A stretch of DNA of 64,000 nucleotides from Salipiger abyssi (GTDB lineage: Bacteria; Pseudomonadota; Alphaproteobacteria; Rhodobacterales; Rhodobacteraceae): positions 62,001 to 126,000 of the forward strand of contig NZ_JAEKIS010000004.1 of NCBI RefSeq assembly GCF_017311415.1, in the 5' to 3' direction. The notes below the pieces were generated by a model that did not search any database, had not been told where the DNA came from, and saw only the letters and a program-made list of their open reading frames with translations. Shown here piece after piece: positions 11,143-41,514 of the stretch (position 1 is its first letter; each line of letters starts with the position of its first letter). Made by a program: the position numbers and the translations under genes.

Positions 11143-11145
11143 CGC

Positions 11146-12534: not shown

Positions 12535-12556
12535 GTTGGGTCTCTTTCTTCGTAGG

Positions 12557-20660: not shown

Positions 20661-20676
20661 TACATTCCTGAATGTA
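20661..20676. promoter_or_regulatory. Inverted repeat upstream of the toxin-antitoxin module
   Basis: TACATTC-CT-GAATGTA is a perfect 7-2-7 inverted repeat 22 bases before the antitoxin start. It overlaps the expected promoter zone. AbrB-type antitoxins autoregulate through such repeats, so it is the likely operator. Confidence 0.6.
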
Positions 20677-20698
20677 GATCATTCCGAAAGGGCGCAAG

Positions 20699-22574: not shown

Positions 22575-22649
22575 CGGGCCTCTCATCGTTTTGCGCAGAG
22601 AAGGGCGGGCGGGGCGCCGAGAGTCAAGCCTCGGCGCCTCAGGAGCGCG

Positions 22650-24443: not shown

Positions 24444-24584
24444 GGCTGTTTCTCCCGGCGAACACAATTTTGACCTGAGCCTAGCACGGCAAAATATCGG
24501 GGTCATTCGTTCGCTGTGGAGAAAGGGGAGCGCGGCCCGTCTCTCGCCCCGCCGGTGCGGGGTTCATGAGCGTGCCGCTCCTCA

Positions 24585-24612
24585 GCCGCTGCGCCGACAG
24601 AGGCGCAGCGGC
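24585..24612. terminator. Strong hairpin downstream of the aldo/keto reductase gene
   Basis: A perfect 11-bp stem (gccgctgcgcc with ggcgcagcggc) closes a 6-base loop in the 207-bp gap between the GGT gene and the aldo/keto reductase gene. It lacks a clear U-run. It most likely ends or trims the reductase transcript. Confidence 0.45.
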
Positions 24613-24650
24613 ATTGTCAGAGTATCAGGGACAGCCCCAAGCGCTAGCGG

Positions 24651-25511
24651 TCACGCCTTTGCGTAGACCGGAAAGACGCTGGCGTCGCCGTAATCCTTGA
24701 TCGGCTCGATAGTCTTCAGCGCCTCGATATCGGCGTCGGAGATTTCAAACTCCACGGCGGCGTTGCTCTTCATGTGGTCCGGGTTGCCGGTTTTCGGCAG
24801 TGCCACCAGCCCGAGTTGCAGCACATAGCGGATGCAGAGCTGCGGCACGGTCACGCCGTATTTCTCGGCCATGGCGCCGATCTCGGCATTGTCGAGGATC
24901 TTGCCGTGGGCGATGGGCGAATAGGCCTCGACGGTTACCCCCTTGCTCTTGGCATAGTCGATCAGCTCGAACGGCGTGTTGCTGATATGGGCGAGGATCT
25001 GATCGACCATCGGCTTGATACGTGCGTTTTCGAGCAGGTTGTCGAGATCTTCCTTTTGGAAGTTCGACACGCCGATGGCGCGGATCTTGCCGGCGTCATA
25101 GGCCTCTTCCAGCGCCTTCCATGCCGCGAGATTGCCTTCGAAAAAGCGGTCGTCGCCGGAAAAATTCGCCCATGGCTGCGGGCTGTGGATGATCATCAGG
25201 TCGATATAGTCGAGCCCGAGGGTTTCGAGCGAGCCTTCGATGGCGGCCTTGGCGCCGTCGTAATCCTTGATCTCGGCGGCGAGCTTGGTTTGCAGGAACA
25301 GCTTGTCGCGGGCGATGCCGGAGGCGCGGATGCCTTCGCCGACGCCGCGCTCGTTGCCATAGGCCTGCGCGGTGTCGATATGGCGATAGCCGAGCCCGAT
25401 GGCCGCTTTCACGGCGTCTGCGGCCACGTCGTCTTCGATCATCCAGGTGCCGAGGCCGAGTTTCGGAATGTCGACGCCGTTCGAGAGGGTATATGTTTCG
25501 TTGTGGATCAT
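24651..25511 (-). CDS. Aldo/keto reductase
   Basis: A 286-residue AKR-family NADPH-dependent reductase. The catalytic tetrad is visible: Asp and Tyr in YRHIDTAQAYGNERGVG, Lys in FLQTKLAAE, and His in LMIIHSPQPW. The cofactor end shows IGVSNFQKEDL and LPKTGNPDHMKSN. It starts at ATG 25509-25511 with AAGG 7 bases before; longer open frame upstream is not used. Family members reduce aldehydes and ketones such as 2,5-diketo-D-gluconate or methylglyoxal. It is alone on its strand, so its physiological substrate is not inferable. Confidence 0.85.
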   Translation of the reverse strand: MIHNETYTLSNGVDIPKLGLGTWMIEDDVAADAVKAAIGLGYRHIDTAQAYGNERGVGEGIRASGIARDKLFLQTKLAAEIKDYDGAKAAIEGSLETLGLDYIDLMIIHSPQPWANFSGDDRFFEGNLAAWKALEEAYDAGKIRAIGVSNFQKEDLDNLLENARIKPMVDQILAHISNTPFELIDYAKSKGVTVEAYSPIAHGKILDNAEIGAMAEKYGVTVPQLCIRYVLQLGLVALPKTGNPDHMKSNAAVEFEISDADIEALKTIEPIKDYGDASVFPVYAKA

Positions 25512-25868
25512 CTGAGTGCCTTTCTTTTCCATGCGATCCGAGCCGGTTTCTTCCGTAGCTCGGTCAATCCTGTCGATCCGCACCGCAAGCGGGCGAAGGC
25601 GCGTGTGGCGCTTTCGCCGCCCGGTGTTTCGCAAAGGCGCGAAGGGCGGTATCGGTTCCATGTTCCGCATATAGGACCGTCGCGTGGACCGGATAATCCA
25701 AGCAGAGCGACATTCACCTATGAGCAAATTTCATGAAGGGCGTCGCGCCGGACGGATCGCCAACCTGCGCATTCCCGATCTGCCCTGTCCCTGCCCCAGC
25801 CGGCGGGGCGGGCAATGCCGGGACGTATGTGCGAAGATCTCGTCGAGCAGCGACAGGCCGGCGTCGCG
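25512..25868. other. Intergenic stretch upstream of the aldo/keto reductase gene
   Basis: This 357-bp gap holds no gene I can support. It contains a hairpin at 25592-25618 (11 pairs, one GU) that would lie in the 5' leader of the reductase gene. The small open frames here have no family signature. Confidence 0.4.
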
Positions 25869-26591
25869 CTATGTTGCGTCGGGCGTCTGAATGAGGCCGA
25901 GCTTGCGGGCATCGGCGCGCATCGCATGAATGAGGTCGTCGACCGAGACGCGCGACCGGGCCATGTCGGGCGATGCCAGCTCCTGTAGAATGATGCCGTC
26001 GATGCCGGCCATGACCAGCTGCGCCAGGCGCTCGACATTGCGCATGGTTTCGGGGTCTTCGGCATCGACATGGAGTGCGAAGGCATCCACATGCGCGCGG
26101 ATGTAGTCGTTGTACTGGCGCCGGGCCATCCAGCGGGCATCGGCGCTGCGTAGCGCGTAGAGCGTCAGTTCATACTGAACGATCTGAATGGTCAGGTCGT
26201 CCTCGGCGTGGCGCCAGTCGGCCAGCAGGGCGCGGCCAATACATTCATCGAGGTTTCGGCTACCGGCGACACCCATGCGTAGCGAGCGGTCCATATTCGC
26301 GCCGAGATAGTCCAGAACGGCGAGCAGCAGGGCGTCCTTGCTTTCGAAATGGTAGTGAAGAGTTCCGAGGTTGACCTGCGCGAATTCGGCGATCTTGCGC
26401 GTGGTGATCCCGGTCACGCCTTCGGCGCAGAGCGCCGCAAGCGCGCCGGTCAGCAGCTTTTCCCGCGTCTCCCGCGCCTTGCGGCCCATGCGGGGGCGGG
26501 CCCCGGGCGCCGTAGCCGGCTTGTCGGGGCTGATTTCGGCGTTGGGCGCGTCCGCGCCGGACGGGGTTTCGGGAGGGTTCTTCATGCTCAT
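25869..26591 (-). CDS. TetR-family transcriptional regulator
   Basis: A 240-residue TetR regulator with a disordered N-terminal leader of about 35 residues, then the helix-turn-helix (residues about 40-85: KARETREKLLTGALAAL, GITTRKIAEFAQVNLGTLHYHF). The C-terminal ligand domain is of the type that follows KDALLLAVLDYL. A second ATG two codons later is equally possible as start. It is divergent from the hyuA-led operon; the 200-bp space between holds the palindrome TGGTC-TATT-GACCA. It probably represses that operon in the absence of substrate. Confidence 0.87.
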   Translation of the reverse strand: MSMKNPPETPSGADAPNAEISPDKPATAPGARPRMGRKARETREKLLTGALAALCAEGVTGITTRKIAEFAQVNLGTLHYHFESKDALLLAVLDYLGANMDRSLRMGVAGSRNLDECIGRALLADWRHAEDDLTIQIVQYELTLYALRSADARWMARRQYNDYIRAHVDAFALHVDAEDPETMRNVERLAQLVMAGIDGIILQELASPDMARSRVSVDDLIHAMRADARKLGLIQTPDAT

Positions 26592-26660
26592 ACTCGCATA
26601 ATAGGCGCTGAAACAGGCAGAGGCGATATTTCGTCGGCCTCTGATACGGTTTTAGATTTT

Positions 26661-26674
26661 TGGTCTATTGACCA
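26661..26674. promoter_or_regulatory. Candidate TetR operator upstream of hyuA
   Basis: TGGTC-TATT-GACCA, a perfect 5-4-5 inverted repeat, lies 70 bases from the TetR start and about 118 bases before hyuA. Its half-site GACCA recurs nearby in the same operon, which supports a common regulator. Confidence 0.5.
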
Positions 26675-26747
26675 GTTTCGTGCATCGTTGAAACTCTCTC
26701 CAAAGAGAAAACAGAGTCGAATCCGATCATGTCCAATTTCTTTTTTA

Positions 26748-26760
26748 ATCAAAAGACCAA
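26748..26760 (+). repeat. Repeated motif ATCAAAAGACCAA (copy 1)
   Basis: This 13-mer lies 32 bases upstream of the hyuA start. Copies differing at one base lie at 30560 and 31028. All share the GACCA half-site of the nearby palindrome. Confidence 0.45.
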
Positions 26761-26792
26761 GATCATCGACAGGTAGACAGGAGAACGGCGCC

Positions 26793-28841
26793 TTGCGCAA
26801 GATCGGCGTGGACACAGGCGGGACATTCACGGATTGCGTGCTTTTCGATGAGGAGCGCGGGCGTGTGGTCGTTGAGAAGGTGCCGTCTCAGCCGGCCAAT
26901 CCGGAGCAGGCGATCCTCGATGGGGTTCAGCGGGTGACCCGTCTGGCAGGGCTGAGCCTCGCGGAGATCGACGTGATCGCACATGGCACGACCATCGCAA
27001 CGAATATCGTGATCGAAGAAACCTATGCGCGTGCTGGCGTGCTGGCGACCAGCGGCTGCCGCGACGTGCTTGAGATAGGCACCCAGCAGCGGCCGCAACC
27101 ATATGCTCTGATGCACGCGCCCAAGCCGGTGCTGGTGCCGCGGGACCTGCGGGCCGAGGTGGCGGGGCGGGTGGATGCCGAGGGCAATCCTTTGGTGCCG
27201 CTCGATGAGGACGCCGCGCGCGCGGCCGTGCGGGCGCTGCTCGCCGAGGGCGTCGAGGCTCTGGCGATCACCGGGCTTTTCTCGTTTCTTGCGCCCATGC
27301 AGGAGCGCCGTGCCGCTGCCATCGCCGCGGAGGTCGCGGCGGAGGTGGGGCAGCCGCTCTATATTGTCGTCTCGTCCGATGTGTCGCGCGAAGTGCGGGA
27401 ATTTCCGCGTTTCGCTACAGCCGCCATCAACGCCTCTCTGGCGCCAAAGCTCGACCCTTATGTCCGCCGGCTGGATGATGAGCTGCGCGACTCCGGCTTT
27501 GCTGGCGAGCTGCTCATCATGCAAAGCTCCGGCGGCATCGCGACCGCGCAGCGCTCCATGGGCGAGCGCGCGCATCACCTTGTTCTGTCCGGCCCGGCGG
27601 CTGGCGTGGTGGGCGGCGTGGACGTTTGCGCACAGGCGGGGATCGGCGAGCTGATCACGCTGGATGTGGGCGGTACGAGCGCGGATATCGGCGTCGTGGT
27701 GGGGCAGGAGCCCCGGCTGCAATTCGAGATGGATCTGCCGAACGGCACGCCCTTGCAGGTGCCGAACCTTGAGATCGAGACCATCGGCGCGGGTGGAGGC
27801 TCCATTGCCTGGATCGACGCGGGTGGCGCGCTTCAGGTGGGGCCGCGCAGCGCCGGGGCCCGTCCGGGGCCCGTCTGCTTCGGGCTTGGCGGCACCGAGC
27901 CCACGGTCACCGACGCGCAGGTGGTTCTGGGGCGTCTGAACCCCGCCGGGCTGCTGGCCGGCGGGCTGCGGCTCGATCGGGAGGCGGCGGTTGCGGCTAT
28001 CGCGACACTGGCGGACCGGCTGGGAATGAGCGTCGAGGACGCGGCCATGGGCATCGTTTCGGTGATGGAGGCCAATATGGCGGGCGCCATCCGCCGCACC
28101 GCCGCGCGCAACGGCGACGATCTGCGCGACTTCACCCTGGTGGCCGCTGGCGGTGCGGGTGGGCTCAGCGTTGCGGCGCTGGCGCGCGATCTTGCCATTC
28201 CGCGTGTTCTCGTACCGCGCCATCCGGGGTTGCTCAGCGCCGCCGGACTGCTGAACGCGCCGCTGCGACACGATTTGACGCTGCCGATTCTTATCGCGGG
28301 CGAGGCGCTGGTGCCGGACGATCTGCTGTCGCGGCAAGCGGCGCTGGAGGCCGAGGTCGCCCGTGCGCTGCACGATGACGGCATGCCGGCGGAGCGTTGC
28401 AGCTTTGGCCATGCGCTCGACATCCGCTATTTCGGTCAGGAATTCTCGGTCACCACCCCTGTCACGCCGGGTGAGGCGGTGGCCGATATTCTCGATCGCT
28501 TCCACGTCGCGCATGAGCGCGTCTACGGCCATTCCGCGCCGGGCGACCGCACCGAGGTGACCGCGCTTCGGGTCAACGGAGCGGGCGCGGTGAACGCCAT
28601 GGCCGGGTTCGATCACGCCGCGCCCGCCGAGGCGAAGTCCCGTACGCGACGTGTCTGGTTCGCCGAGGCGGCTGGCTATGTGGACACGCCGGTTGTCCCA
28701 CGCGAGGCATTGGTCCCCGGCGACAGCCTGACGGGCCCGGCGATTGTCGAGCAGCTCGACACCACCATCGTTCTGCCGCCGGGCCGCCGGGCACAGGTCG
28801 ATCCGCGCGCCTGCCTGATCATCGAGGGGATCGCCGAATGA
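26793..28841 (+). CDS. hyuA: Hydantoinase/oxoprolinase family protein, subunit A
   Basis: A 682-residue ATP-dependent amidohydrolase subunit of the HyuA/5-oxoprolinase family. ASKHA-type motifs are clear: KIGVDTGGTFTDC at the N-terminus, HGTTIATN, MQSSGGIATAQ, LSGPAAGVVGG and LDVGGTSADIG. Together with HyuB it hydrolyses cyclic amides such as N-methylhydantoin, 5-oxoproline or acetophenone-type carboxylation substrates. The frame is open far upstream, but homology begins at TTG 26793, which has AGGAG 9 bases before it, so a TTG start is proposed. Overlap with hyuB (ATGA) shows a two-subunit enzyme. Confidence 0.87.
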   Translation: MRKIGVDTGGTFTDCVLFDEERGRVVVEKVPSQPANPEQAILDGVQRVTRLAGLSLAEIDVIAHGTTIATNIVIEETYARAGVLATSGCRDVLEIGTQQRPQPYALMHAPKPVLVPRDLRAEVAGRVDAEGNPLVPLDEDAARAAVRALLAEGVEALAITGLFSFLAPMQERRAAAIAAEVAAEVGQPLYIVVSSDVSREVREFPRFATAAINASLAPKLDPYVRRLDDELRDSGFAGELLIMQSSGGIATAQRSMGERAHHLVLSGPAAGVVGGVDVCAQAGIGELITLDVGGTSADIGVVVGQEPRLQFEMDLPNGTPLQVPNLEIETIGAGGGSIAWIDAGGALQVGPRSAGARPGPVCFGLGGTEPTVTDAQVVLGRLNPAGLLAGGLRLDREAAVAAIATLADRLGMSVEDAAMGIVSVMEANMAGAIRRTAARNGDDLRDFTLVAAGGAGGLSVAALARDLAIPRVLVPRHPGLLSAAGLLNAPLRHDLTLPILIAGEALVPDDLLSRQAALEAEVARALHDDGMPAERCSFGHALDIRYFGQEFSVTTPVTPGEAVADILDRFHVAHERVYGHSAPGDRTEVTALRVNGAGAVNAMAGFDHAAPAEAKSRTRRVWFAEAAGYVDTPVVPREALVPGDSLTGPAIVEQLDTTIVLPPGRRAQVDPRACLIIEGIAE

Positions 28842-30559
28842 CCGCCACCGCTCCGCTTGGCACGAATGCCATTGATGCGCCCATCGACCCGGTGACGGTT
28901 GCCGTCATCGGCGCGGCCCTGCGCGCCGTCGTTGGCGAGGCGGGCGAGGCGCTGCGGCGTTCGGCGCATTCGCCGATCATTCGTGAGATGCTGGACTATT
29001 CCTGCGCGCTCTTCGACGCGACGGGCCAGACGGTTTCCGAGGATGCCAATATCCCGGCGCTTCTGGGGTCCATGACCTATGCCATGCCGCATCTTCTGGC
29101 CGAAAACCCGCCCGAGACGATCCGGCCGGGAGATATTTTCATCGGCAACGATCCCTATCGCGGCTGCACCCACACGCTCGACATCCATATCTTTGCGCCG
29201 GTCTTCGACGGTGAGCGGCTGGTGGGCTGGGTCGGCAATCTCGCCCACCACACAGACATCGGCGGCACCAACCCCGGCACCGAGGGCTTTGCCAACCAGT
29301 CGATCTATGAGGAGGGGCTGCGCTTTCCCTGGGTCCGGCTGATGGAGGACGGGCGCGAGAACACCGCGCTGATGCGCTACTTCGAGAACAACACCCGCGA
29401 TCCTGTGTCCTCCATGGGCGATATCCGCGCCCAGATCGCCTCGGCCCGGCTGGCGCTGCGGCGGCTCGACGGGCTGATCGCCAAATACGGCGCCGACCGG
29501 CTGGGCGATGCCATGGCGGCGCGGATCGAGCAGAGCGAACGGCGGGTCCGCGCCATGCTTTCGGCGGTGCCGGATGGCTCGGGCCGGGCCGAGGGGTTTC
29601 TCGACAACGACGGGCTGAGGGACGATCCGGTCCGTATCGCGGTCGAGGTCACGCTGGCCGGCGACCGGCTGGTGGTGGATTTCACCGGCACCGATCCGCA
29701 ATTGTCGGGCGGCATGAACGCGTCGCGCACGGCGACGCTGGCGGCGGTGATCTTTGCGGTCAAGGCGATCTTCGACCCGGAGGCGGAGCAGACCGCAGGC
29801 AGCCTGCGCCCGGTCGAGATCGTATTGCCCGAGGGCTCGGCGGTGAACCCGGCCTTTCCGGCGGCGGTCAGCCTGCGCCACCTCGCGGCGCAGCGGATCA
29901 CCGACACCATCGTGCGCGCGGCAGCGGATTTCGTGCCGGGTCTTGAGGTGGCGGGCTCCTTCGTCGGCTTCTCCTCGATGGCGGCGGAATGCCGGCATCC
30001 GCGCACCGGGCTGACGGTGGTCATGGCCGACGATCTGGGCGGCGGTATGGGCGGCAACGGGCGCAATGACGGATTGTCGGGCGTCGACCCCTATCTCGGC
30101 AATGTCGGTATCCTGCCGATGGAGATCTGCGAGCGGCAATATCCGATCCGCATCCTCACCACCGAATTCGTTCCCGACAGCGGCGGGCCGGGCCAGCACC
30201 GGGGCGGGCTGGGCATACGGCGGATCTATGAGTTTCTCGACCGTGCCGATGTGGTCTTTTACACCGAGCAGACCCGCGCAGAATTCGCGCCCTGGGGCGC
30301 GGCGGGCGGCAGGCCGGGCCAGCCCGCGCGGCTGGTTCTGGAGCAGGCCGACGGGCGCTGCACGCCGGTCATGAAAAAGCGCGTGCTGGTCGGCCCGGGC
30401 GACCGCATGGTGACCGAGACGGCGGGCGGCGGCGGATGGGGCGATCCGGCCCGCCGCGATCCCGGGGACGTGATCCGCGACCTGCGCGAAGGAAAGGTCA
30501 CGATTGAGGCACTCTCCGGCGCTTACGGTGCCGCCACGTCCTCGGACGTTGACAAATAA
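28838..30559 (+). CDS. hyuB: Hydantoinase/oxoprolinase family protein, subunit B
   Basis: A 573-residue HyuB-family protein. The typical order is present: IDPVTVAVIGAALRAVVGEAGEALRRSAHSPIIREMLDYSCALFD, then PGDIFIGNDPYRGCTHTLD, NLAHHTDIGG, and late GGPGQHRGGLGIRR. The first block is cited in parts. It forms the second half of the ATP-dependent cyclic-amide hydrolase with HyuA and is translated from an overlapping start. Length agrees with family norms (about 560-590). The specific ring substrate is unknown; the importer behind it may supply it. Confidence 0.87.
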   Translation: MTATAPLGTNAIDAPIDPVTVAVIGAALRAVVGEAGEALRRSAHSPIIREMLDYSCALFDATGQTVSEDANIPALLGSMTYAMPHLLAENPPETIRPGDIFIGNDPYRGCTHTLDIHIFAPVFDGERLVGWVGNLAHHTDIGGTNPGTEGFANQSIYEEGLRFPWVRLMEDGRENTALMRYFENNTRDPVSSMGDIRAQIASARLALRRLDGLIAKYGADRLGDAMAARIEQSERRVRAMLSAVPDGSGRAEGFLDNDGLRDDPVRIAVEVTLAGDRLVVDFTGTDPQLSGGMNASRTATLAAVIFAVKAIFDPEAEQTAGSLRPVEIVLPEGSAVNPAFPAAVSLRHLAAQRITDTIVRAAADFVPGLEVAGSFVGFSSMAAECRHPRTGLTVVMADDLGGGMGGNGRNDGLSGVDPYLGNVGILPMEICERQYPIRILTTEFVPDSGGPGQHRGGLGIRRIYEFLDRADVVFYTEQTRAEFAPWGAAGGRPGQPARLVLEQADGRCTPVMKKRVLVGPGDRMVTETAGGGGWGDPARRDPGDVIRDLREGKVTIEALSGAYGAATSSDVDK

Positions 30560-30572
30560 ATCAAATGACCAA
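30560..30572 (+). repeat. Repeated motif ATCAAATGACCAA (copy 2)
   Basis: The copy begins one base after the hyuB stop, in the 100-bp gap before the binding-protein gene. It differs from copy 1 at one base and is identical to copy 3. Confidence 0.45.
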
Positions 30573-30659
30573 AAATAAATTCACCTCCGGCATCAAGGCT
30601 TCCGCAGAAGAGCCCAAAATCAACGTCTGCCGGTCACTTCCACAACAGGGAAAAGACAG

Positions 30660-31805
30660 ATGCACAAGACGATGACGCCTCTTATTGGCATGCAAGCTCT
30701 TCGTGGTTCCAGAGGTCCGACGCGCCGCGAGGTGCTGGGCGGGATGCTGGCCGCATCGACCGCGAGCCTTGGCCTGCCGCGCATGGCGCGTGCCGCAGAT
30801 GCCCGTATTTCTTATGTCGGTTGGGAGGGCTATGATAGCGCGTTCACCGCTGGGGGCTTTCTGGAACAGAACGGCGCGGAGCTGGATGCCACATATATCG
30901 CCGCGACCGAAGACATCATCACCCGGCTGCGCTCGGGCGGGATGGGCACGGTGGACATCACCAGTTTCAACCACCTCTACAATCCACTCATGGGCGAAGC
31001 CGGGCTGATCGCACCCGTTAAAACAGATCAAATGACCAATTTTGATAAGCTCTTGCCGCAGTTCCGAGACATGGCGACCGAGGCGGACGGCACCTGCTAC
31101 GGCATTCCGCTGACCTTCAGCAGCTGCGCGCTGCTGTATAACCCCGCGATGGTTTCTGCCGCGCCGACGAGCTGGAAGGACTTCCTCGCACCCGAATACA
31201 AGGGCAAGGTCGCGCTGTTCAGCGACGCGCTGACCAATATCCTGGTCTGGGCGCCGGTGGCGACCGGTGTCGCCGATCCGACCCGGCTGACCAAGGCGCA
31301 GCTCGACGAGACCGTCGACCTGCTGATCACGCTAAAGAAGGAGCATGTCCGCGCCATGCCCGCGAGCCTCGGCGACGGGGCGGAGCTGCTCATTCAGGGC
31401 GAGGTCGCCATGATCATGGGCTGGGAGCCGATGGTGATCTGGTGCCGGGAAAAAGGTGTCGAGGTCTCCATTGCCAAGCCCGAGGAAGGCACCTGGGCCT
31501 TTGTCGATACGCTGAACATCGCGACCGACGCGCCGAATGCCGATCTCGATCTGAGCCTGATCGACCATGCGATCAGCGCCGACGCACAGGCGGAATTCGG
31601 CAATGCCAACCTTCTGGGGATCGTCAACGCCGAGGCGGTGGGGCAACTCTCGCCCGAGCTTCAGGAGCTCTATGGGTTCGACAATCTCGATGCCTATTTC
31701 GAGCACGCGCATATCTACCCGCGCATGTTCCCGCTTGAGCCCGAGGGTGATTTCGTGACCTACGATCAGGTGCTCGACGGCTACGACCGGTTCCTGCGGG
31801 CCTGA
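30660..31805 (+). CDS. Tat-exported solute-binding protein, spermidine/putrescine (PotD) type
   Basis: A 381-residue periplasmic binding protein. The N-terminus carries a twin-arginine signal, PTRREVLGGMLAAS with R22-R23, and a cleavage region near ARA-AD. The mature part begins ISYVGWEGYDSAF and shows the PotD/PotF class I order, with GIPLTFSSCALLYNPAMV. A binding protein of this class takes polyamines or other amine-like cations, but many relatives bind unrelated small molecules. It heads the four-gene ABC importer and follows hyuAB. Tat export suggests folding in the cytoplasm before transport. Confidence 0.87.
   Translation: MHKTMTPLIGMQALRGSRGPTRREVLGGMLAASTASLGLPRMARAADARISYVGWEGYDSAFTAGGFLEQNGAELDATYIAATEDIITRLRSGGMGTVDITSFNHLYNPLMGEAGLIAPVKTDQMTNFDKLLPQFRDMATEADGTCYGIPLTFSSCALLYNPAMVSAAPTSWKDFLAPEYKGKVALFSDALTNILVWAPVATGVADPTRLTKAQLDETVDLLITLKKEHVRAMPASLGDGAELLIQGEVAMIMGWEPMVIWCREKGVEVSIAKPEEGTWAFVDTLNIATDAPNADLDLSLIDHAISADAQAEFGNANLLGIVNAEAVGQLSPELQELYGFDNLDAYFEHAHIYPRMFPLEPEGDFVTYDQVLDGYDRFLRA
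31028..31040 (+). repeat. Repeated motif ATCAAATGACCAA (copy 3)
   Basis: An exact repeat of the 13-mer at 30560, but within the binding-protein coding region. The position argues that it could be chance or an internal operator. Confidence 0.3.
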
Positions 31806-31831
31806 CGGAACGGGACACGGAGGGGGATCCG

Positions 31832-32896
31832 ATGGCAGCCGCATCGCTTCTGGAACTGCGCGGTCTGACGCGCCGCTACGGGACGATGACCGCGGTGCAG
31901 CCCATCGACCTCGCCATTCGCGAGAACGATTTCTTCGCGATCCTCGGCCCGTCGGGCTGCGGCAAGACAACCTTGCTGCGGATGATCGGCGGTTTCGTGC
32001 AGCCCTCGGACGGATATGTGCTGATTGGCGGGCGGGACGTCACCCGCCTGCCGCCGGACAAGCGCCCAACGGGCATGGTGTTCCAGAATTACGGTCTCTT
32101 CAGCCATATGACCGTGCGGCAGAACGTGGCCTATGGCCTGCGTCTGCGACGCAGGCCGCGTGCCGAGATTGGCGCGGAGGTGGAGCGGATGCTCGACCTC
32201 GTGCACCTGTCGCCCTATGCCGACCGGCCCGCCAAGGATCTGTCGGGCGGGCAGAAACAGCGGGTCGCGCTGGCGCGCGCGCTGATCCTCAAGCCGAAAG
32301 TGCTGCTGCTCGACGAGCCGCTCGCCGCGCTGGATCTGCAACTGCGCAAGGCGATGCATCAGGAGCTTCTGGCGATCCACGAGGCGATTGGCGGCACGTT
32401 CATTCTGGTCTCGCACGACCAGACCGAGGTGATGACCCTGGCGAACCGCGTGGCCGTGATGAGCGGCGGACGCGTCGCGCAGGAAGGCAGCCCGACCGAG
32501 ATCTACGACCGACCCGCCGACCCGTTCGTCGCGCGGTTCATCGGCGACGCCAACCTGCTGCCCGCGCGGCGTACCGGAGGCGTGATCCTACTTGGCGACG
32601 GCGCGCCGCCGATCCCTTCACCCGGTGCCGACGCGGCGGTCGACGTGATGCTCCGCCCCGAGGCGCTGCGGCTTGTCGCTGGCCATGGCAGTGGGCTGCG
32701 CGCGTATATCGAGCAGGTGGTGTTCCAGGGCTCCCACGTTCGGGTGCATTGTCTTGCAAAGCAGGCCGGTGGCGCCGAGATGCGCGTGACCGCCACCCTT
32801 GGCCGAGACGTGTTGCCGGCCGGGTCAGGGCAGGGTGCTGCGGTCTCGATCACATGGGCGGAGGGCGCGCCGCTTGTCCTTCCGGCGGGGGCGTGA
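31832..32896 (+). CDS. ABC transporter ATPase, PotA type
   Basis: A 354-residue ATPase. Walker A is GPSGCGKTT (residues 39-47), the Q-loop follows in GMVFQNYGLFSHM, and the signature is LSGGQKQRVALARAL with Walker B LLLDEPLAALD. A C-terminal TOBE domain (about residues 270-350) is typical of polyamine and spermidine importers. A GGAGG site lies before the ATG. It energises the importer made of the neighbouring binding protein and two permeases. Confidence 0.93.
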   Translation: MAAASLLELRGLTRRYGTMTAVQPIDLAIRENDFFAILGPSGCGKTTLLRMIGGFVQPSDGYVLIGGRDVTRLPPDKRPTGMVFQNYGLFSHMTVRQNVAYGLRLRRRPRAEIGAEVERMLDLVHLSPYADRPAKDLSGGQKQRVALARALILKPKVLLLDEPLAALDLQLRKAMHQELLAIHEAIGGTFILVSHDQTEVMTLANRVAVMSGGRVAQEGSPTEIYDRPADPFVARFIGDANLLPARRTGGVILLGDGAPPIPSPGADAAVDVMLRPEALRLVAGHGSGLRAYIEQVVFQGSHVRVHCLAKQAGGAEMRVTATLGRDVLPAGSGQGAAVSITWAEGAPLVLPAGA

Positions 32897-32898
32897 CC

Positions 32899-33774
32899 AT
32901 GCGCATGCCCGATGCCGAGCGCGCGCAACTCCGGCGCGAGGGGCTGAAGACAGCGTTGCTCATGGCGCCTGCGGTGATCGTGTTTATCGGGCTGTTCGTG
33001 GCACCGCTTGCCTGGTTTTTCGTGCAGAGCTTCTGGCGCAACGCGACGTTCCGCGTAGTGCCCGATTTTCAGTTCGGCAATTATGCGACCGCCTTTCGCG
33101 ATTATGGCGGCGTGCTGCTGCGCACGCTGGGGACCGGGCTGGAGGTGGGGGGGATCACCACCGTTCTGGCGTTTTTCTTCGCCTATGCGGTGCGCTTTGC
33201 GCTGGGGCGCGCCGGGCCGTTGATCCTGGTGATCGCGCTCACCACGCTCTTCGGCGGCTATGTGGTCAAGGTCTATGCCTGGCGCTCGCTGCTGGGTCTC
33301 GACGGTATCCTGAACGGCGCGCTGATGGCCGCCGGGCTGACCGACGCGCCGGTCGAGGCATTGCTCTTCAACGCCGGGGCGGTGACGGTCACGCTCACGC
33401 ATTACCTTCTGCCGCTGGCGATCCTGCCGCTTTACGGCGCGCTGGCGGATATGGACGAGACGGTGATCGCGGCGGCGCGCGACAGCGGCGCCTCGGCGCC
33501 GCGCACCATGTTCGACATCGTGCTGCCGCAGATCCGGCCCGCGCTGATCGCCAGTTTCGCCATGAGCTTCCTGCTCGCCGCCGGGGATTATGTCACCCCG
33601 GCGCTGGTCGGCAGCCCCGGCAACGCGATGTACGGCAATTTCATCCAGTCGCAGTTCGGGCTGCGTATGAACACGCCGCTGGGGGCGGCGATGTCCTTCA
33701 GCCTGCTGGGCTGCTGTCTGCTGATCCTTGCCACGGTCTGGCTGGTGATGCGCAGGGTGCTGAGGGCCAGATGA
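32899..33774 (+). CDS. ABC transporter permease, PotB type
   Basis: A 291-residue permease with about six membrane helices. It begins MRMPDAERAQLRREGLK, then LLMAPAVIVFIGLFVAPL, and the EAA loop is AARDSGASAPRTMFDIVLPQI. The upstream in-frame extension overlaps the ATPase gene and is rejected; ATG 32899 follows the ATPase stop by 2 bases. It forms the channel with the next permease, whose start overlaps its stop. Confidence 0.9.
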   Translation: MRMPDAERAQLRREGLKTALLMAPAVIVFIGLFVAPLAWFFVQSFWRNATFRVVPDFQFGNYATAFRDYGGVLLRTLGTGLEVGGITTVLAFFFAYAVRFALGRAGPLILVIALTTLFGGYVVKVYAWRSLLGLDGILNGALMAAGLTDAPVEALLFNAGAVTVTLTHYLLPLAILPLYGALADMDETVIAAARDSGASAPRTMFDIVLPQIRPALIASFAMSFLLAAGDYVTPALVGSPGNAMYGNFIQSQFGLRMNTPLGAAMSFSLLGCCLLILATVWLVMRRVLRAR

Positions 33775-34541
33775 GACAGGGCGCCGTTCTCCCATTTGCC
33801 TTCACCGCCGCCGTGCTGCTGTTTCTGACGGTGCCGCTGGTGCTCTGCATGCTCTTCGCCTTTACCACCGGCAACGCGTCGAGCCTGCCGGTGCCGGGGC
33901 TTGGTCTGCGCTGGTTCCGGGCGCTCGACGCCAACCCGCAGTTCTGGGCGGCGCTGTCGGTCACCGCGCAGGTGACCGTCGGCTGCGCGCTGGCCAGCAC
34001 GCTTACCGGACTGCTGGCGGCCATCGGCATGACGCGCATGTCCACCGCCCGCGCGATGAGCTGGCTTGTGGTGTTGAGCCTGCCGCTGATGCTGCCGCCG
34101 CTGGTGCTGGGCCTGGCGCTGCTGACCTTCTTCACCTCGGTGGGGCTGAAACCGGGCGTGACCGCGACCATCCTCGCGCATCTGGTCTTTACGCTGCCCT
34201 TCGTCACCGGGGTGCTTTACGCCCGGCTGTCCACGATGGACCGCGCGCCGGTCGATGCCGCCCGCGACCTCGGTCAGAGCCCGTTCGGCGCCTTTCGCGA
34301 CGTCACCCTGCCAGCACTCGGCCCGACACTGATCGGCGCGATGCTGATCGCCATGGCGCTGTCGCTCGACGATTTCGTCATCACCTTCTTCACCACCAGC
34401 CGGAACACCCTGTCGACGCTGATCTGGGGCATGATGCGCCAGAGCATCACACCCGAAATCAACGCCATCGGCACTTCGATCATCGCCTTCAGCCTGTCGG
34501 TGACGGTGATCGCGCTGCGCCTGACACGCTACCGGGGCTGA
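33771..34541 (+). CDS. ABC transporter permease, PotC type
   Basis: A 256-residue permease starting at ATG 33771, which overlaps the PotB-type stop by 4 bases. Membrane helices are evident (FTAAVLLFLTVPLVLCMLFAF; LSLPLMLPPLVLGLALL), and the EAA loop reads AARDLGQSPFGAFRDVTLPAL followed by SLDDFVITFF, characteristic of PotC. With the binding protein, ATPase and PotB it completes a polyamine-type importer. Confidence 0.9.
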   Translation: MRQGAVLPFAFTAAVLLFLTVPLVLCMLFAFTTGNASSLPVPGLGLRWFRALDANPQFWAALSVTAQVTVGCALASTLTGLLAAIGMTRMSTARAMSWLVVLSLPLMLPPLVLGLALLTFFTSVGLKPGVTATILAHLVFTLPFVTGVLYARLSTMDRAPVDAARDLGQSPFGAFRDVTLPALGPTLIGAMLIAMALSLDDFVITFFTTSRNTLSTLIWGMMRQSITPEINAIGTSIIAFSLSVTVIALRLTRYRG

Positions 34542-34573
34542 CCCTTGCTCCTCTTCCCTCGAAAGGATCCGTT

Positions 34574-35893
34574 ATGACGACACCCGCCGCAAAACCGATG
34601 CATCTGGGATGGTTCATGGGGTTTTCCCCCGATGAATGGAACACGCCCTTTGGCAATGGCGGCGCGCCCTGGGACGGTCAGTTCTTTGTCGAGATGGCCA
34701 AGACGCTGGAGCGCGCCTGTTTCGATTTCCTCATGGTCGAAGACACGCTGATGGTGTCGGAGGCCTATGGCCATTCCATGGACACCTATCTCAAACACGC
34801 GCTGATGGTGCCCAAGCACGACCCGGCGCCGCTGGCCGCGATGATGACCTCGGCCACCCGCAATATCGGGGTGATCACCACCATGTCGACCATGGCCTAC
34901 CCGCCTTTCATGCTGGCGCGGCTGGCCTCGACACTCGATCACATCTCGGGCGGGCGGTTCGGCTGGAACATCGTGACCTCGGGCGAAAACACCGCCGCGC
35001 AGAATTTCGGCATGGACGCGCTGCCCCCGCGTGAGGACCGCTACGCGATGGCCGAGGAATATATGGAACTGATCGGCGAGCTGTTCGGCTCCTGGGATCC
35101 CGATGCGGTGGTGATGGACCGGGAGGCGGGCCGCTATGCCGATGGCAGCAAGGTGCGGACAATTGATTTTCAGGGCAAGTATTTCAAATGTCGGGGCCCG
35201 CTCAACACGGTGCCCTCGCCGCAGGGACGGCCCTTTTACATGCAGGCCGGCGGCTCGCCGCGCGGGCGGGATTTTGCCGCGAAACATGCCGACGGCATCG
35301 TTGCGGTGGGCAATGGCATCGCCGGGATGAAGGCCTATCGCGACGACATCCGCGAACGGGCGGTCAAGTTCGGGCGCGACCCGGATCAGATCAAGATCTT
35401 CTTTTGCATCACACCGGTTCTGGGCGAGACCCATGAGGAGGCCGTCGCCAAACACGCCCGCATGATCAACAACGACCTTTTCATCGAGCAGAGCCTCGCG
35501 TTCATCGCCGGGGTGACCGACATCGATTTCTCGCAGTTCGATCTGGACAAGCCGTTGCCGAAGCTGACCACCAATGGCGAGCAGGGCTCTCTGGACAAAT
35601 TCGCGCAATGGGGCAGCGGCAAGACGCTGCGCCAGCTGGTGATTGAAGCGTCGGGCGGGCTGGTGTCCTCCATCGAGCTGATCGGCACGCCGGACGAGGT
35701 CGCCGAGCGCATGGGCGAGGTGATGGCGGAGGTGGGCGGCGACGGGTTCCTGATCTGCTCGCCTTCGCTGCGGGTCGAGCGGCGCCATGTGGTCGAGATC
35801 GCCGACGGGCTGATCCCGGCGCTTCAGCGCCGTGGGCTGGCCCGGACGGAATACACCGGCAAGACGCTGCGCGAGACCGTGCTGGAATTCTGA
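34574..35893 (+). CDS. LLM-class flavin-dependent monooxygenase (NtaA/SnaA/DszA type)
   Basis: A 439-residue luciferase-like TIM-barrel protein. The family run GRFGWNIVTSGENTAAQNFG, the insertion YADGSKVRTIDFQGKYFKCRGPL, and GRPFYMQAGGSPRGRDFAA all mark the NtaA/SnaA/DszA branch, which uses FMNH2 supplied by a separate reductase. Members open or cleave C-N, C-S or ring bonds. No flavin reductase gene is next to it. It sits behind the importer with AAGGA before the ATG, so it is probably an early catabolic step on the imported compound. Confidence 0.87.
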   Translation: MTTPAAKPMHLGWFMGFSPDEWNTPFGNGGAPWDGQFFVEMAKTLERACFDFLMVEDTLMVSEAYGHSMDTYLKHALMVPKHDPAPLAAMMTSATRNIGVITTMSTMAYPPFMLARLASTLDHISGGRFGWNIVTSGENTAAQNFGMDALPPREDRYAMAEEYMELIGELFGSWDPDAVVMDREAGRYADGSKVRTIDFQGKYFKCRGPLNTVPSPQGRPFYMQAGGSPRGRDFAAKHADGIVAVGNGIAGMKAYRDDIRERAVKFGRDPDQIKIFFCITPVLGETHEEAVAKHARMINNDLFIEQSLAFIAGVTDIDFSQFDLDKPLPKLTTNGEQGSLDKFAQWGSGKTLRQLVIEASGGLVSSIELIGTPDEVAERMGEVMAEVGGDGFLICSPSLRVERRHVVEIADGLIPALQRRGLARTEYTGKTLRETVLEF

Positions 35894-35900
35894 TCCTGCC

Positions 35901-35919
35901 GCGCCGCTGGCAGCGGCGC
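35901..35919 (+). terminator. Small hairpin between the LLM and FAD-oxidase genes
   Basis: gcgccgct and agcggcgc form an 8-bp stem with a 3-base loop just after the monooxygenase stop. There is no U-tract, so it may only trim or protect the transcript end. Confidence 0.35.
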
Positions 35920-35943
35920 GCCCCCTTGTCACGGAGCATCGCC

Positions 35944-37344
35944 TTGGCCCGTCCCGCAGACCTTCCGCCGATGCTGGCCCATGCCCGCCCGCGCCCGTTT
36001 TGGCCCGACACCGTGCCGGCCAGCACTCCCGCCCCGGCGCTAGATGGGGATATCGCCTGCGATCTGGCCATTGTCGGGGGTGGATTTCTCGGGCTCTGGT
36101 CCGCCGTTCATGCGCGCCTGCGGTACCCGGACGCGCGGATCGTCGTGCTCGATGCGGGGGTTTGCGGCGGCGCGGCCAGCGGCCGCAATGGCGGCTTCTG
36201 CGCCCCGTCGATTTCGCACGGGCCGGGCAATGCCATGCGGCGCTGGCCGGACGAGGCCGAAACGCTGATCCGTCTCGGGGCCGAGAACCTTAACGACTTT
36301 GCGGAGGATCTGGAGGCGCTGGCGATCGAGGCGGAATTCGAGCGCGGCGGCAAGCTCGTTGTGGCGCGGACACCCTGGCAGGAAGAGGCGCTGAAAGAGA
36401 CCGGGCGTCTGTTTGCGCGCTGCGGTATCCCGGCGCGCCTGCTGCGTGGCACGGCACTGGCGGAAAAGCTGGACTCGCCGGTCTATACGTGCGGCCTGTG
36501 GGAAGAAAACTACGCGCTGGTAAACCCTGCCAAGCTGGTGGCGGAGCTGCGGCGCGTTGCCATGGCGAGCGGCACCTGTCTTTACGAAAACACGCCGGTG
36601 ACCGGGCTGCGCACGAGCGACGATGGCGTCGGGTTACAGACCCCCGGCGGCGCCCTGCGCGCCGGCAAGGTGATCCTCGCGACCAATGCCGCCCGCCCGT
36701 TGCTGCGGCGGCTCGCACCCGCGGTCATTCCCGTCTACGACTATGCGCTGATGACCGCGCCGCTGACGCAGGCGCAGCTTGCGTCCATCGGCTGGACCGG
36801 GCGGCACGGCATCTCCGACAGCGGCAACCAGTTCCACTATCTGCGCAAGAGCGCGGACAACCGGATCCTCTGGGGTGGTTACGATGCGATCTATCATTTC
36901 GGCGGTCGTCGCGACGCGGAGCGCACGCAGCGCCCCCAGAGCTTTGCGCGGCTGGCCGAGCAGTTCGCCGAAGCCTTCCCGCCGCTCGCCGATACACCCT
37001 TTGACTATGCCTGGGGCGGGGTCATCGACACCTCGGCCCGCACAACGTTTTTTACCGGTCTCAGCGAGGGCGGCCGGGTCGCCTGGGCGATGGGCTTTAC
37101 GGGGCAGGGGGTGACGGCCACGCGCTTTGCCGCGCTGTCGCTGCTCGATCGGCTAGACGGGTTGCAGACCGAACGAACGAGGTTGCGGATGACCTCGACC
37201 CGGCCGTTTCCGTTTCCGCCCGAGCCGCTGCTTTATGCCAGTGTGCGGATGGCGCAGCATGGCCTGGCGCAAGAAGACCGCACCGGGCGGTGCGGTCTCA
37301 CTCTCAAGGCGCTGGACGCGCTCGGAATCGGTTTCGATTCCTGA
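35944..37344 (+). CDS. DAO-family FAD-dependent oxidase (PuuB-like)
   Basis: A 466-residue flavoprotein. The FAD-binding fold is CDLAIVGGGFLGLWSAVHARL, followed by ASGRNGGFCAPSI, a motif shared with gamma-glutamylputrescine oxidase. The C-terminal part has TGLSEGGRVAWAMGFTGQGV. The frame opens earlier at TTG 35926, but TTG 35944 has GGAG 7 bases before it; an ATG at 35971 is the conservative alternative. The enzyme should oxidise an amine, matching a polyamine-type importer and an upstream LLM oxygenase. Substrate unverified. Confidence 0.8.
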   Translation: MARPADLPPMLAHARPRPFWPDTVPASTPAPALDGDIACDLAIVGGGFLGLWSAVHARLRYPDARIVVLDAGVCGGAASGRNGGFCAPSISHGPGNAMRRWPDEAETLIRLGAENLNDFAEDLEALAIEAEFERGGKLVVARTPWQEEALKETGRLFARCGIPARLLRGTALAEKLDSPVYTCGLWEENYALVNPAKLVAELRRVAMASGTCLYENTPVTGLRTSDDGVGLQTPGGALRAGKVILATNAARPLLRRLAPAVIPVYDYALMTAPLTQAQLASIGWTGRHGISDSGNQFHYLRKSADNRILWGGYDAIYHFGGRRDAERTQRPQSFARLAEQFAEAFPPLADTPFDYAWGGVIDTSARTTFFTGLSEGGRVAWAMGFTGQGVTATRFAALSLLDRLDGLQTERTRLRMTSTRPFPFPPEPLLYASVRMAQHGLAQEDRTGRCGLTLKALDALGIGFDS

Positions 37345-37358
37345 GGCAGCCAGCCGGA

Positions 37359-38150
37359 TCAGAAGACCGGCATCGAGCCGCCATTGACCCAGTAATCCGA
37401 GCCGGTGACAAAGCTGGCGCGGTCCGAGCTCAGGAACAGCACGACCTCGGCCACCTCTTCGGGCTCGCCAATGCGCTGTAGGGCGAATTTCTTGTGCTCC
37501 TTTGCGAAGTGGTCGATGACCTTGTCGCGCTCCATGCCGCCATACATTTCGGCCAGCAGGTCAATGAAGCCGCCGGGTTTCTCCCAGATCGGTGTGCGGG
37601 TGGCGCCGGGCGAGACGCAATTGGCGCGCACGCCCTGCGGGCCGAACTCGATCGACAGCGATTTCATGAAGCTCAGAACGGCCGCCTTGGACATGCAGTA
37701 GTCGTAGAACAGCGGCTCCGGCATACGGCCGAAATCCGATGCGATGGCCACGACCGAGCCCTTGCCCGCCTTGGCCATATGTGGCACCGCCGCCCGCGCA
37801 CAGCGCAGCACGCCCAGCACGTTGACGTCGAAAGTGTTCATCACGTCCTTGTCGCCGGTATCGCTCAGCCCCGTGCGGGTGGGCGCTACGCCGGCGCAGC
37901 AGACAAGCGCGTCGATCTTGCCATGAGCGTCGAGCGCCGCCTGCGCCAGCCGCTCTCCGCCGTCGCCGCGCAGGTCGACTTCGACGCCGGTGACGCTGCC
38001 GAGGCCGGACAGGCCAGACACCGCCGAGACATCGAGATCCCCGGCAATCACCTGCGCGCCTTCCTCGACAAAGCGCGTGGCGGTGGCGAGCCCGATGCCG
38101 GATCCGGCTCCTGTGACGATCACGGTCTTTCCCTGAAATTCCTGTGACAT
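37359..38150 (-). CDS. Short-chain dehydrogenase/reductase
   Basis: A 263-residue classical SDR. The NAD(P)-binding motif is VIVTGAGSGIGLATA, the VCCAGVAP region matches the NNAG position, and the active-site YCMSK follows (Y-x3-K). SDRs of this kind oxidise or reduce secondary alcohols on sugars, polyols or aromatics. A strong GGAGGAG site precedes ATG 38148-38150; the longer open frame is rejected. It is the last gene of a three-gene leftward set divergent from the Rbs-type sugar importer operon, so both arms probably share a substrate. Confidence 0.87.
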   Translation of the reverse strand: MSQEFQGKTVIVTGAGSGIGLATATRFVEEGAQVIAGDLDVSAVSGLSGLGSVTGVEVDLRGDGGERLAQAALDAHGKIDALVCCAGVAPTRTGLSDTGDKDVMNTFDVNVLGVLRCARAAVPHMAKAGKGSVVAIASDFGRMPEPLFYDYCMSKAAVLSFMKSLSIEFGPQGVRANCVSPGATRTPIWEKPGGFIDLLAEMYGGMERDKVIDHFAKEHKKFALQRIGEPEEVAEVVLFLSSDRASFVTGSDYWVNGGSMPVF

Positions 38151-38202
38151 TTCATTCTCCTCCCAATGCAGCGAATGTGTGGTGATGGCCGGCGGGCGCA
38201 CG

Positions 38203-38679
38203 CTAGAGCAACTGCCAAATCAGCCGGTCGAGCGAGATGGGGCCGCCGCCGTAGAAGACGAAGAACAGCGCGCAGAAGCCCCAAAGTGCATAGTGTTCGA
38301 ACCCGTTCTGGTTCGAAAAGAACCCGTCCTTGATGTGGTGGATCGCGGACAGGAACAGCAGCGCCGCGCAGGTTAGCGCGACGGGCCGGGTGAACAGACC
38401 GAGCGCCAGCAGGGCGCCGCCCACCAGATTGTTCACCGTCGAGAGCCAGGCCCAGAACATCCCCGGCTTCCAGCCGAATTTCTCCATATAGGCCGCCGTT
38501 CCCGCGACGGTCTGGACCGGCATGCCGGTATTGGGGAAAAACTGGAAGCTGGCCCGGAGCGCGTAGAGTACCAGGACCACGCCGACCCAGACCCGCAACA
38601 CCAGCGCCCAGATCGCAAAAATCGCGGGGAAGGATGTTTCGGCAAATTGAAAGAGCGACGGTGAGGCTGTGATATCCAT
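38203..38679 (-). CDS. DoxX-family membrane protein
   Basis: A 158-residue integral membrane protein with about four hydrophobic helices (IWALVLRVWVGVVLVLYAL; VNNLVGGALLALGLF; ALTCAALLFLSAIHHI; YALWGFCALFFVFYGG). The glycine-rich GALLALGLFTR turn fits DoxX-type proteins, several of which sit beside redox enzymes as a quinone-linked subunit. It lies between a deacetylase-like gene and an SDR gene. A role as membrane partner of an oxidoreductase is possible but unproven. Confidence 0.75.
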   Translation of the reverse strand: MDITASPSLFQFAETSFPAIFAIWALVLRVWVGVVLVLYALRASFQFFPNTGMPVQTVAGTAAYMEKFGWKPGMFWAWLSTVNNLVGGALLALGLFTRPVALTCAALLFLSAIHHIKDGFFSNQNGFEHYALWGFCALFFVFYGGGPISLDRLIWQLL

Positions 38680-38733
38680 GACGGTTCCGGTTGTTATTGG
38701 GGCGCCTGTCGGCCCTGTTTCGCGGGGGCCGGC

Positions 38734-39579: not shown

Positions 39580-39783
39580 CGGTCTTCCTCCCATTTATTC
39601 GTTTAGCAACTAACGATATGATGGAACTATTATGGTGCACGGATCTATCTGTCAATCCACTGGTAAATAGCAGAAATAGGAAAAATTTGATATCTACACT
39701 ATTGACTCATCTATGGTTCCGCATCTAGCGTCTTTCTAGTTCATTACTATCCTAATTATAAAACGCTCTGGGAGGAGAACAGG
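39580..39783. promoter_or_regulatory. AT-rich divergent promoter with MarR-type palindrome
   Basis: This 204-bp gap is far more AT-rich than its surroundings and separates two divergent operons. At 39603-39613 it holds TTAG-CAA-CTAA, an inverted repeat typical of MarR-family sites. Two MarR genes at the far end of the right-hand operon make it a likely operator. Confidence 0.55.
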
Positions 39784-40662: not shown

Positions 40663-40688
40663 GGGCGGAAATCAAGTGGAGGATAAAC

Positions 40689-41486: not shown

Positions 41487-41514
41487 AATCCGGCGTCTGG
41501 GAGGAGCCACTACC

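Follow-up and report, generated by a model that had tools for sequence, protein, structure and literature searches.

An eight-gene island of Salipiger abyssi that may serve catabolism of an amine-bearing lactam

Eight co-directed genes in a stretch of Salipiger abyssi DNA appear, on balance, to form a catabolic operon for an amine-bearing cyclic amide (lactam), repressed by a TetR-family protein and probably acquired horizontally. The stretch, here called the window, comprises 64,000 nucleotides (assembly GCF_017311415.1, contig NZ_JAEKIS010000004.1, positions 62,001–126,000), and the genes at 26793–37344 encode the two subunits of a hydantoinase/oxoprolinase-type enzyme (HyuAB), a Pot-type importer, a flavin mononucleotide (FMN)-dependent luciferase-like monooxygenase (LLM) and a flavin adenine dinucleotide (FAD) amine oxidoreductase of the DAO family. 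An N-aminoalkyl lactam would fit as substrate. We base this reading on the gene content common to the window and three relatives, which share one LLM clade and one HyuB clade, and on an operator footprint, retained catalytic residues, linkage of HyuAB with a DAO in 5/6 clusters and the polyamine-type fold of the substrate-binding protein. It also draws on a RutF-like reductase gene that adjoins an LLM relative in Ancylobacter, and on the N-methylpyrrolidone pathway, in which excerpts of PMC12866759 place an oxidation before the HyuAB step.

Open reading frames and a Pfam scan, in which all nine genes score above cut-off, confirm the earlier note's description of eight mostly tightly spaced genes behind a divergent TetR gene. 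On the plus strand, hyuA (26793–28841; TTG start with AGGAG upstream) encodes the ATP-binding subunit of a lactam hydrolase (PF05378, PF01968 and PF19278 above cut-off; Hydant_A_N 169.5 and Hydantoinase_A 285.3 bits) and hyuB (28838–30559) its metal-binding, ring-opening subunit (PF02538; Hydantoinase_B 536.2 bits). The importer follows as a potD-like substrate-binding protein gene (30660–31805; SBP_bac_8, 97 bits), a potA-like ATPase gene (31832–32896; ABC_tran, 122 bits, and TOBE_2; TIGR01187 320.9 bits, short of its cut-off of 355.6) and potB-like and potC-like permease genes (32893–33774, GTG start, and 33771–34541; BPD_transp_1 34 and 56 bits, cut-off 26), whose best equivalogs are PotB (112.5 bits, cut-off 348 not reached) and PotC (141.7 bits, cut-off 326 not reached). 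The last two genes are an LLM of the NtaA/DmoA family (34574–35893; Bac_luciferase 171 bits; TIGR03860 415.2 bits, cut-off 279.7) and the DAO (35926–37344; PF01266, DAO 185 bits; TTG, start codon uncertain). Gaps from hyuA to DAO are −4, 100, 26, −4, −4, 32 and 32 bp. The TetR gene lies on the minus strand at 25869–26591 (PF00440 and PF17940 above cut-off; TetR_N 36.5 bits). Neither a tRNA nor an Rfam family reaching its gathering score was found in scans of the window.

The grouping is more than a chance arrangement, because TetR, hyuAB, potDABC and LLM genes co-occur in other genomes. A search for LLM relatives across the genomes of 84,980 species gave 129 stretches, 88 of them with a relative; 80 were kept as 79 loci, of which eight in one reading and four in another were read gene by gene (with crude gene calling and some wrong-frame reading frames that match no family). 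TetR, hyuA, hyuB, potD, potA, potB, potC and LLM genes stand together in Acidisoma cellulosilyticum (locus L044) and Zavarzinia aquatilis (L045, wider in L163); a Parvibaculaceae metagenome-assembled genome (L046) has the same set minus potA, with potB directly after potD, and a fourth locus (L047) holds a truncated potC–LLM piece. Identities of the three relatives to the window are 77–82% for LLM, 72–76% for HyuB, 65% for HyuA and 67–73% for PotD. The earlier note had named neighboring gene order as the check on its proposal: the content TetR-hyuAB-potDABC-LLM does recur, with potA missing in one of the three, but its order is not conserved. In the relatives hyuAB is divergent from TetR, and an Lrp/AsnC-type gene on the other strand (domain checked in Acidisoma) comes before the pot genes and LLM.

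Phylogenies place these sets close together while pointing to rearrangement. In the LLM tree (87 sequences) the window, Acidisoma, Zavarzinia, Parvibaculaceae and the truncated piece form one clade (100/98), and in the HyuB tree (44 sequences) the window groups with Acidisoma, Zavarzinia, Parvibaculaceae, Pseudomonas MPC6 and Sinorhizobium BG8 (100/100), the same six clusters that carry a TetR gene and an operator-like site. Within that HyuB clade the four LLM-bearing clusters are not monophyletic, so the module has been reshuffled. Both trees cover fetched loci only, and the window's duplicate (L009) was left out of the HyuB tree. Since loci were found through HyuB, LLM, PotD and DAO queries, and the Ti plasmid discussed below was chosen for its opine genes, the linkage counts given here are not a random sample. 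The window's own genome (5.2 Mb) holds fourteen Hydantoinase_B genes, eight of them on the window's contig including the island's copy; none of nine other copies placed in the HyuB tree groups with it.

A putative operator, probably the control site shared by these clusters, lies between TetR and hyuA. TetR relatives, each inside a hyuAB cluster, are 60–72% identical in Acidisoma, Zavarzinia and Parvibaculaceae and 48–50% in MPC6 and BG8. The 15-bp palindromic word TTGGTCTATTGACCA (26660–26674; core TGGTC-N4-GACCA) occurs as 15 identical bases, in either orientation, in the TetR/hyuA gaps of the window, Acidisoma, Zavarzinia and Parvibaculaceae; it is the longest word common to the four gaps, and all common 8-, 9- and 10-base words lie inside it. 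BG8 (L124) has two TGGTC-N4-GACCA sites before hyuA, two near an APC-like gene and one far off, and MPC6 (L123) has one site before hyuA with a single mismatch. When the letters of five gaps were shuffled (MPC6 left out), such a site arose in 1 to 7 of 20,000 shuffles. Site counts are less distinctive: when one mismatch is allowed, two sites occur in the window where 1.7 would be expected, that at 26660–26674 being the sole perfect one, and a relaxed pattern gives four perfect sites in the own genome against one for a reversed control, the other three having a GC-richer center. A pattern requiring A/T on both flanks, which also misses the window's own site, has no match in the own genome. The 14-base form with the window-type center occurs once in each of three relatives' genomes, in the TetR/hyuA gap; the relaxed pattern is not enriched genome-wide in these three (8 versus 10 for the control, 4 versus 5 and 3 versus 1), and on plasmids it gives 5 versus 0 in BG8 and 0 versus 0 in MPC6. 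The case for an operator is one of position and identity, not of the number of sites.

HyuAB is most likely an ATP-dependent lactam hydrolase, judging from domains above cut-off, two phosphate motifs (D7 and D291) and an Asp-His-Asp-His metal site. HyuA carries DTGGTFTD at 7, DVGGTSAD at 291 and GARPGP at 355, and matches the N-methylhydantoinase structure 7hk5 (E 4e-147). HyuB residues D53, H112, D115 and H138 align with Asp41, His99, Asp102 and His124 of CapB, the metal residues named in excerpts of PMC8453981, which weigh several mechanisms, among them phosphorylation of the lactam followed by hydrolysis at the metal.

What follows ring opening can be approached through the oxidases linked with HyuAB. 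In 5/6 TetR-linked clusters HyuAB is accompanied by a DAO of one of two families that are only 28–31% alike, a pairing that suggests that the HyuAB step has to be followed by an amine oxidase. The window's DAO is 57–62% identical to those of MPC6, BG8 and Shinella HZN7 and 28–30% identical to those of Acidisoma, Zavarzinia and Variovorax. Judged by sequence, the DAO is an exchangeable part, and the window's copy belongs with clusters of hyuAB and an APC permease; we rejected the idea that it forms part of a set common to the LLM relatives, the DAOs of Acidisoma and Zavarzinia being remote. In MPC6, hyuA, hyuB and an APC permease gene come first, TetR, aldehyde dehydrogenase and NTF2-like genes follow on the opposite strand, and DAO and cupin genes come last; other plasmid matches to the NTF2-like gene are partial, several being to helix-turn-helix regulators, and we make no claim that this is a proven nmp cluster. 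In BG8 the order is hyuA-hyuB-DAO-TetR, and upstream, on the opposite strand, lies a gene that by eye reads as APC-like. More broadly, a DAO or FAD oxidase lies near HyuAB in 8/11 clusters read (window; L123, ~5 kb on; L124; L163; two in L213; L128; L219), and tblastn searches with two DAO sequences found none near it in L216, L214 and L215. One more cluster (L159), outside this count, is cut short by the edge of its locus. Of the two Acidisoma sets in L213, the second (7611–12595; hyuA-hyuB-DAO) is unrelated to the first, begins ~0.7 kb further downstream and is followed by a binding-protein-like gene (by eye), so that HyuAB and DAO genes pair twice at this locus.

In Acidisoma and Zavarzinia, hyuAB is directly followed by a glutamine synthetase (GS)-like gene (69% alike) and the second-family DAO (63% alike). 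The Zavarzinia GS-like protein scores 283 bits on Gln-synt_C, and the GS-like protein scores about equally as glutamine synthetase III and as gamma-glutamylputrescine synthetase, both below cut-off (the latter 162 versus 650 bits). Given these near-equal scores, the enzyme may either glutamylate an amine or capture a released one.

The LLM would supply an oxidation. Its predicted model (mean predicted local distance difference test score, pLDDT, 79.9) has tied fold matches to RcaE, a riboflavin lyase (Z 42.4), BdsA (42.3), HcbA1 (42.1) and LadA (41.9). NtaA/DmoA-type enzymes often oxygenate the carbon adjoining a nitrogen or sulfur atom, which can end in dealkylation. The earlier note expected the flavin reductase to come from elsewhere, and this holds as far as tested: Pfam finds none among the eight genes and five PF01613 (Flavin_Reduct) genes on other contigs, the NADPH-FMN-reductase family having been left out of the genome-wide search. 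In Ancylobacter (L110) a RutF-like flavin reductase gene adjoins the LLM relative (250.6 bits, cut-off 254.75). A further LLM relative (56%; L160, 8007–9311) adjoins the fas gene region (fas4) of Rhodococcus fascians pFiD188.

Conserved residues and family membership support the earlier note's prediction of import, flavin-dependent oxygenation, amine oxidation and ATP-driven ring opening, and we propose an order for these steps. PotDABC, going by its family, would import the compound. The LLM, with FMNH2 from a reductase encoded elsewhere, would oxygenate it, probably at the carbon adjoining nitrogen as in NtaA/DmoA enzymes; this would serve to remove an N-substituent or to oxidize the ring, and is the weakest step. 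HyuAB would then activate the lactam with ATP and hydrolyze it at the metal site to an omega-amino acid, and the DAO would oxidize the freed amine to an aldehyde with release of ammonia or an amine. Amine oxidation in Acidisoma and Zavarzinia might instead follow gamma-glutamylation by the GS-like enzyme, in the manner of the gamma-glutamyl-polyamine (Puu) pathway. The substrate or a product would release TetR from the palindrome between TetR and hyuA; sharing of the site is observed and binding is predicted. In the island, a lactam hydrolase driven by ATP, a flavin oxygenase and an exchangeable amine oxidase would form a small unit open to testing, together with a repressor whose probable operator comparison reveals. 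The substrate, if found, would assign a function to a clade of LLM oxygenases and a clade of HyuAB enzymes, and TetR and its site might be put to use in sensing lactams. That one HyuAB clade is followed by either of two remote oxidases is itself comparative evidence that the HyuAB product is an oxidizable amine.

The proposal is weakest in assigning LLM and HyuAB a common compound, and several observations weigh against it. At the thresholds used, hyuA/hyuB genes lie at only 3/79 LLM-relative loci (some of them short), and the LLM is absent from the MPC6 and BG8 hyuAB clusters in the stretches read; LLM and HyuAB therefore need not share one compound, and we reject them as a general pair. The Parvibaculaceae cluster lacks potA and has neither a DAO nor a GS gene nearby. 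Scores of the pot models fall below their cut-offs throughout (PotD 67/582, potA subfamily 321/356, PotB 112/348 and PotC 142/326 bits). Finally, the 100-bp gap between hyuB and potD holds a promoter-like match (10/12), but two such sites were found against 1.6 expected. A possible independent association of LLM with HyuAB occurs on a Marinibacterium plasmid (L159, 8001–17305), where an LLM relative (58%) and a polar-amino-acid-type importer accompany a YxeP-like hydrolase, with unrelated HyuA/HyuB-type genes ~5.5 kb away.

We give a minor but real chance to the alternative that two independent modules are neighbors through chance or shared induction: TetR-hyuAB-DAO for an N-methylpyrrolidone-type lactam pathway, and potDABC-LLM for another compound, perhaps in nitrogen or sulfur scavenging. 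MPC6 and BG8 carry TetR, hyuAB, DAO and an APC-type permease, and the cluster stretches read hold no Pot or LLM homologue (a Pot set with PotD at 42% does lie in another part of the BG8 plasmid). At the thresholds used, 76/79 LLM-relative loci show no hyuAB, and those read have other importers, such as L083 with a TIGR03427-type substrate-binding protein (403.8 bits, cut-off 333.9) and a Salipiger plasmid on which an importer annotated as putative urea ATP-binding cassette transporter is followed by the LLM relative, a gene annotated as creatininase and two short-chain dehydrogenase/reductase (SDR) genes. In the close relatives, too, the genes from potD to LLM lie on the strand opposite to hyuAB with the Lrp-like gene between. 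Against this separation, all four members of the LLM clade with long enough loci (window, L044, L045/L163 and L046) carry hyuAB of one clade together with a TetR homologue.

The importer bears on what kind of lactam the proposed operon would degrade. The predicted model of the PotD-like protein has a mean pLDDT of 75.2 (from five sequences), the other four models 40–53, and its listed fold matches, which consist only of binding-protein folds and fusions of them and exclude nothing, are led by YdcS (Z 33.9), PotD (32.5) and PotF variants (up to 32.4). Relative to PotD positions that we take to contact the polyamine, W34, Y37, D168, W229 and D257 are kept and E36, S83, Y85, W255 and Y293 are changed, in an alignment of ~20% identity; a Glu stands adjacent to the E36 position, at T35, and E171 corresponds to N193 in phmmer and to a gap in MAFFT. 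A kept Trp/Tyr/Asp frame with E36 and probably E171 changed might suit a ligand with one charged amine better than one with several. As a long shot, the operon degrades a polyamine-derived lactam, for example N-(3-aminopropyl)-2-pyrrolidinone (isoputreanine lactam) or a putrescine-opine lactam, through Pot-type import, oxidative N-dealkylation by the LLM, opening by HyuAB and finishing of the amine by DAO (or GS and DAO). If true, cyclic end products of polyamines would have a route of breakdown that depends on an oxygenase; we know of no described pathway of that kind.

A slim chance remains for opine-like lactam catabolism, in which the substrate would be a pyroglutamate with an N-substituent (agropinic acid, succinamopine lactam and the lactam form of the putrescine opine rideopine are examples). 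On the octopine Ti plasmid (NC_002377) three adjacent genes, which we take to be agropinic acid genes, encode an FAD oxidoreductase, HyuA and HyuB, and the opine binders MotA and AgtB are among the fold matches of the PotD-like model. Excerpts of PMC6733357 suggest that hydantoinase A/B genes open succinamopine lactams in a region of pTiEU6 that also holds a potABCD-like importer, and those of PMC8554961 and PMC10410297 discuss the idea for rideopine, N-(4'-aminobutyl)-D-glutamate, which can form a lactam and whose putative region in pTiS4 and pTiAB2/73 has lactamase/hydantoinase genes. The same excerpts report these hydantoinase genes absent from pTi932/pTi1078, and excerpts of PMC4231840 hold nothing on hydantoinase. 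Against this reading, identity to the window's proteins is just 42% for the Ti HyuA and 36% for the Ti HyuB; at E 1e-5 the Ti FAD oxidase is matched weakly by the MPC6 DAO and not at all by the window's; and the part of the Ti plasmid that was read carries no annotated LLM. The model, too, favors liganded polyamine binders (Z 31–34; 31–33 in the comparison with opine binders) over opine and gamma-aminobutyrate binders (about 28); since apo SpuD scores 28.4 as well, part of that gap may be a matter of conformation.

Degradation of hydantoin, creatinine or N-methylhydantoin with a sarcosine-oxidase-like DAO (creatinine and hydantoins were among the compounds that the earlier note proposed to screen) is very improbable and was rejected because the eight genes include no N-carbamoyl amidohydrolase and no creatinine deiminase, and the best NCBIfam model for HyuA is caprolactamase, below cut-off (515 versus 1000), although the best solved HyuAB relative is an N-methylhydantoinase and a creatininase annotation follows the LLM relative on the Salipiger plasmid.

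The lactam operon proposed here was probably acquired horizontally and is probably mobile. When 20 genomes of the genus, including the own one, were compared at the DNA level with window positions 22600–42500, matches on the left flank ended at 25527 in an aldo-keto reductase gene (91% in the Salipiger genome G937) and those on the right began at 37359 in an SDR gene (94% in G937). For the block between, ~25.53–37.36 kb, the matches listed for the 19 other Salipiger genomes include no close copy; they comprise LLM-like DNA at 73–74% in four genomes and weaker in a fifth, ABC-ATPase DNA at 65–70% and, for hyuA, a single short match at 67%. In G937 the sequences matching the two flanks are carried by separate replicons, so that genome offers no simple empty site. 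HyuB of the window's clade is rare: among 385 class genomes including the own one the best other match is 76% (G365, inferred Zavarzinia) and the next by E-value are 40–41%, with three candidates scored per genome, and none of the other genomes in a set of 398 from the phylum passes E 1e-150. The best LLM match outside the own genome in 198 family genomes is 39%. Vertical inheritance within the genus is rejected by the DNA comparison together with this LLM search.

The surroundings of the block are composite. Window positions 1634–5995 are 96% identical to a stretch of an inferred Salipiger abyssi plasmid, pPABY5, in G937 (with transketolase and ACC deaminase genes), and 37359–43554 matches a 4.2 Mb contig of the same strain, which makes the window a mosaic of replicons. 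An AbrB-type/PIN-domain pair, toxin-antitoxin-like, at 20430–21308 is 91% identical to a pair on pPABY5, and 54740–54921, 80–81% similar to two copies ~2 kb apart in a G937 locus (L186), is a dispersed repeat. To the right of the island, 37359–42519 is apparently a separate unit, 94% conserved in G937, of SDR-DoxX-deacetylase genes on the minus strand and TIM barrel-SDR-permease genes on the plus strand; its deacetylase resembles the allantoinase PuuE, below cut-off.

Compared with known systems, single parts of the island are familiar. HyuAB shares its subunits, ATP motifs and metal ligands with the caprolactamase CapAB, but scores of 515.1 bits for HyuA and 235.1 for HyuB on NF050156/NF050157, against a cut-off of 1000 each, led us to reject membership. 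The LLM belongs with NtaA, EmoA, DmoA, BdsA, RcaE and LadA by model score and fold; it differs from the solved members among its fold matches in sequence (27–36% identity), and the island differs in having no reductase gene. The Puu pathway finds an echo in Acidisoma and Zavarzinia, where a GS-like gene and DAO follow hyuAB beside a Pot-type importer, although the GS-like score is far below the Puu cut-off and the window's island has no GS-like gene.

Two systems come closer to the whole. In the nmp operons of Alicycliphilus BQ1 and Paracoccus ZQW-1, excerpts of PMC12866759 and PMC6987047 describe a HyuAB-type amidohydrolase followed by an amino acid oxidase; the latter list nmpAB, nmpC and nmpF, and the former report nmpABCDEF up-regulated 102.5- to 690.8-fold, an nmpB knockout strain and oxidation of N-methylpyrrolidone to 1-methyl-2,5-pyrrolidinedione ahead of HyuAB action, to which the LLM reaction may be a parallel. 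The window likewise has hyuAB and a DAO-family gene in one directon, the DAO being a candidate amino acid oxidase only. The likeness is one of described gene content; neither an LLM nor a Pot importer is among the nmp products named in the excerpts, where nmpD and nmpE are not described, and the semialdehyde dehydrogenase NmpF has no counterpart, no aldehyde dehydrogenase being among the island's eight genes. The Ti opine-lactam regions share HyuAB adjoining an FAD oxidoreductase and, in excerpts of PMC6733357, hydantoinase genes with a Pot-type importer in one region; they differ in their HyuAB (36–42%), in their FAD oxidase and in having no LLM annotated. The earlier note recognized no named pathway in this combination: no such pathway was found, and titles and abstract openings in the open-licence literature searched held no description of importer, HyuAB and oxidase together with an LLM oxygenase, but importer, HyuAB and oxidase are a known combination, because such parts occur in Ti plasmid regions and nmp operons. 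Unusual features here are an oxygenase of the LLM type, a likely operator common to the clusters and the exchange of oxidases.

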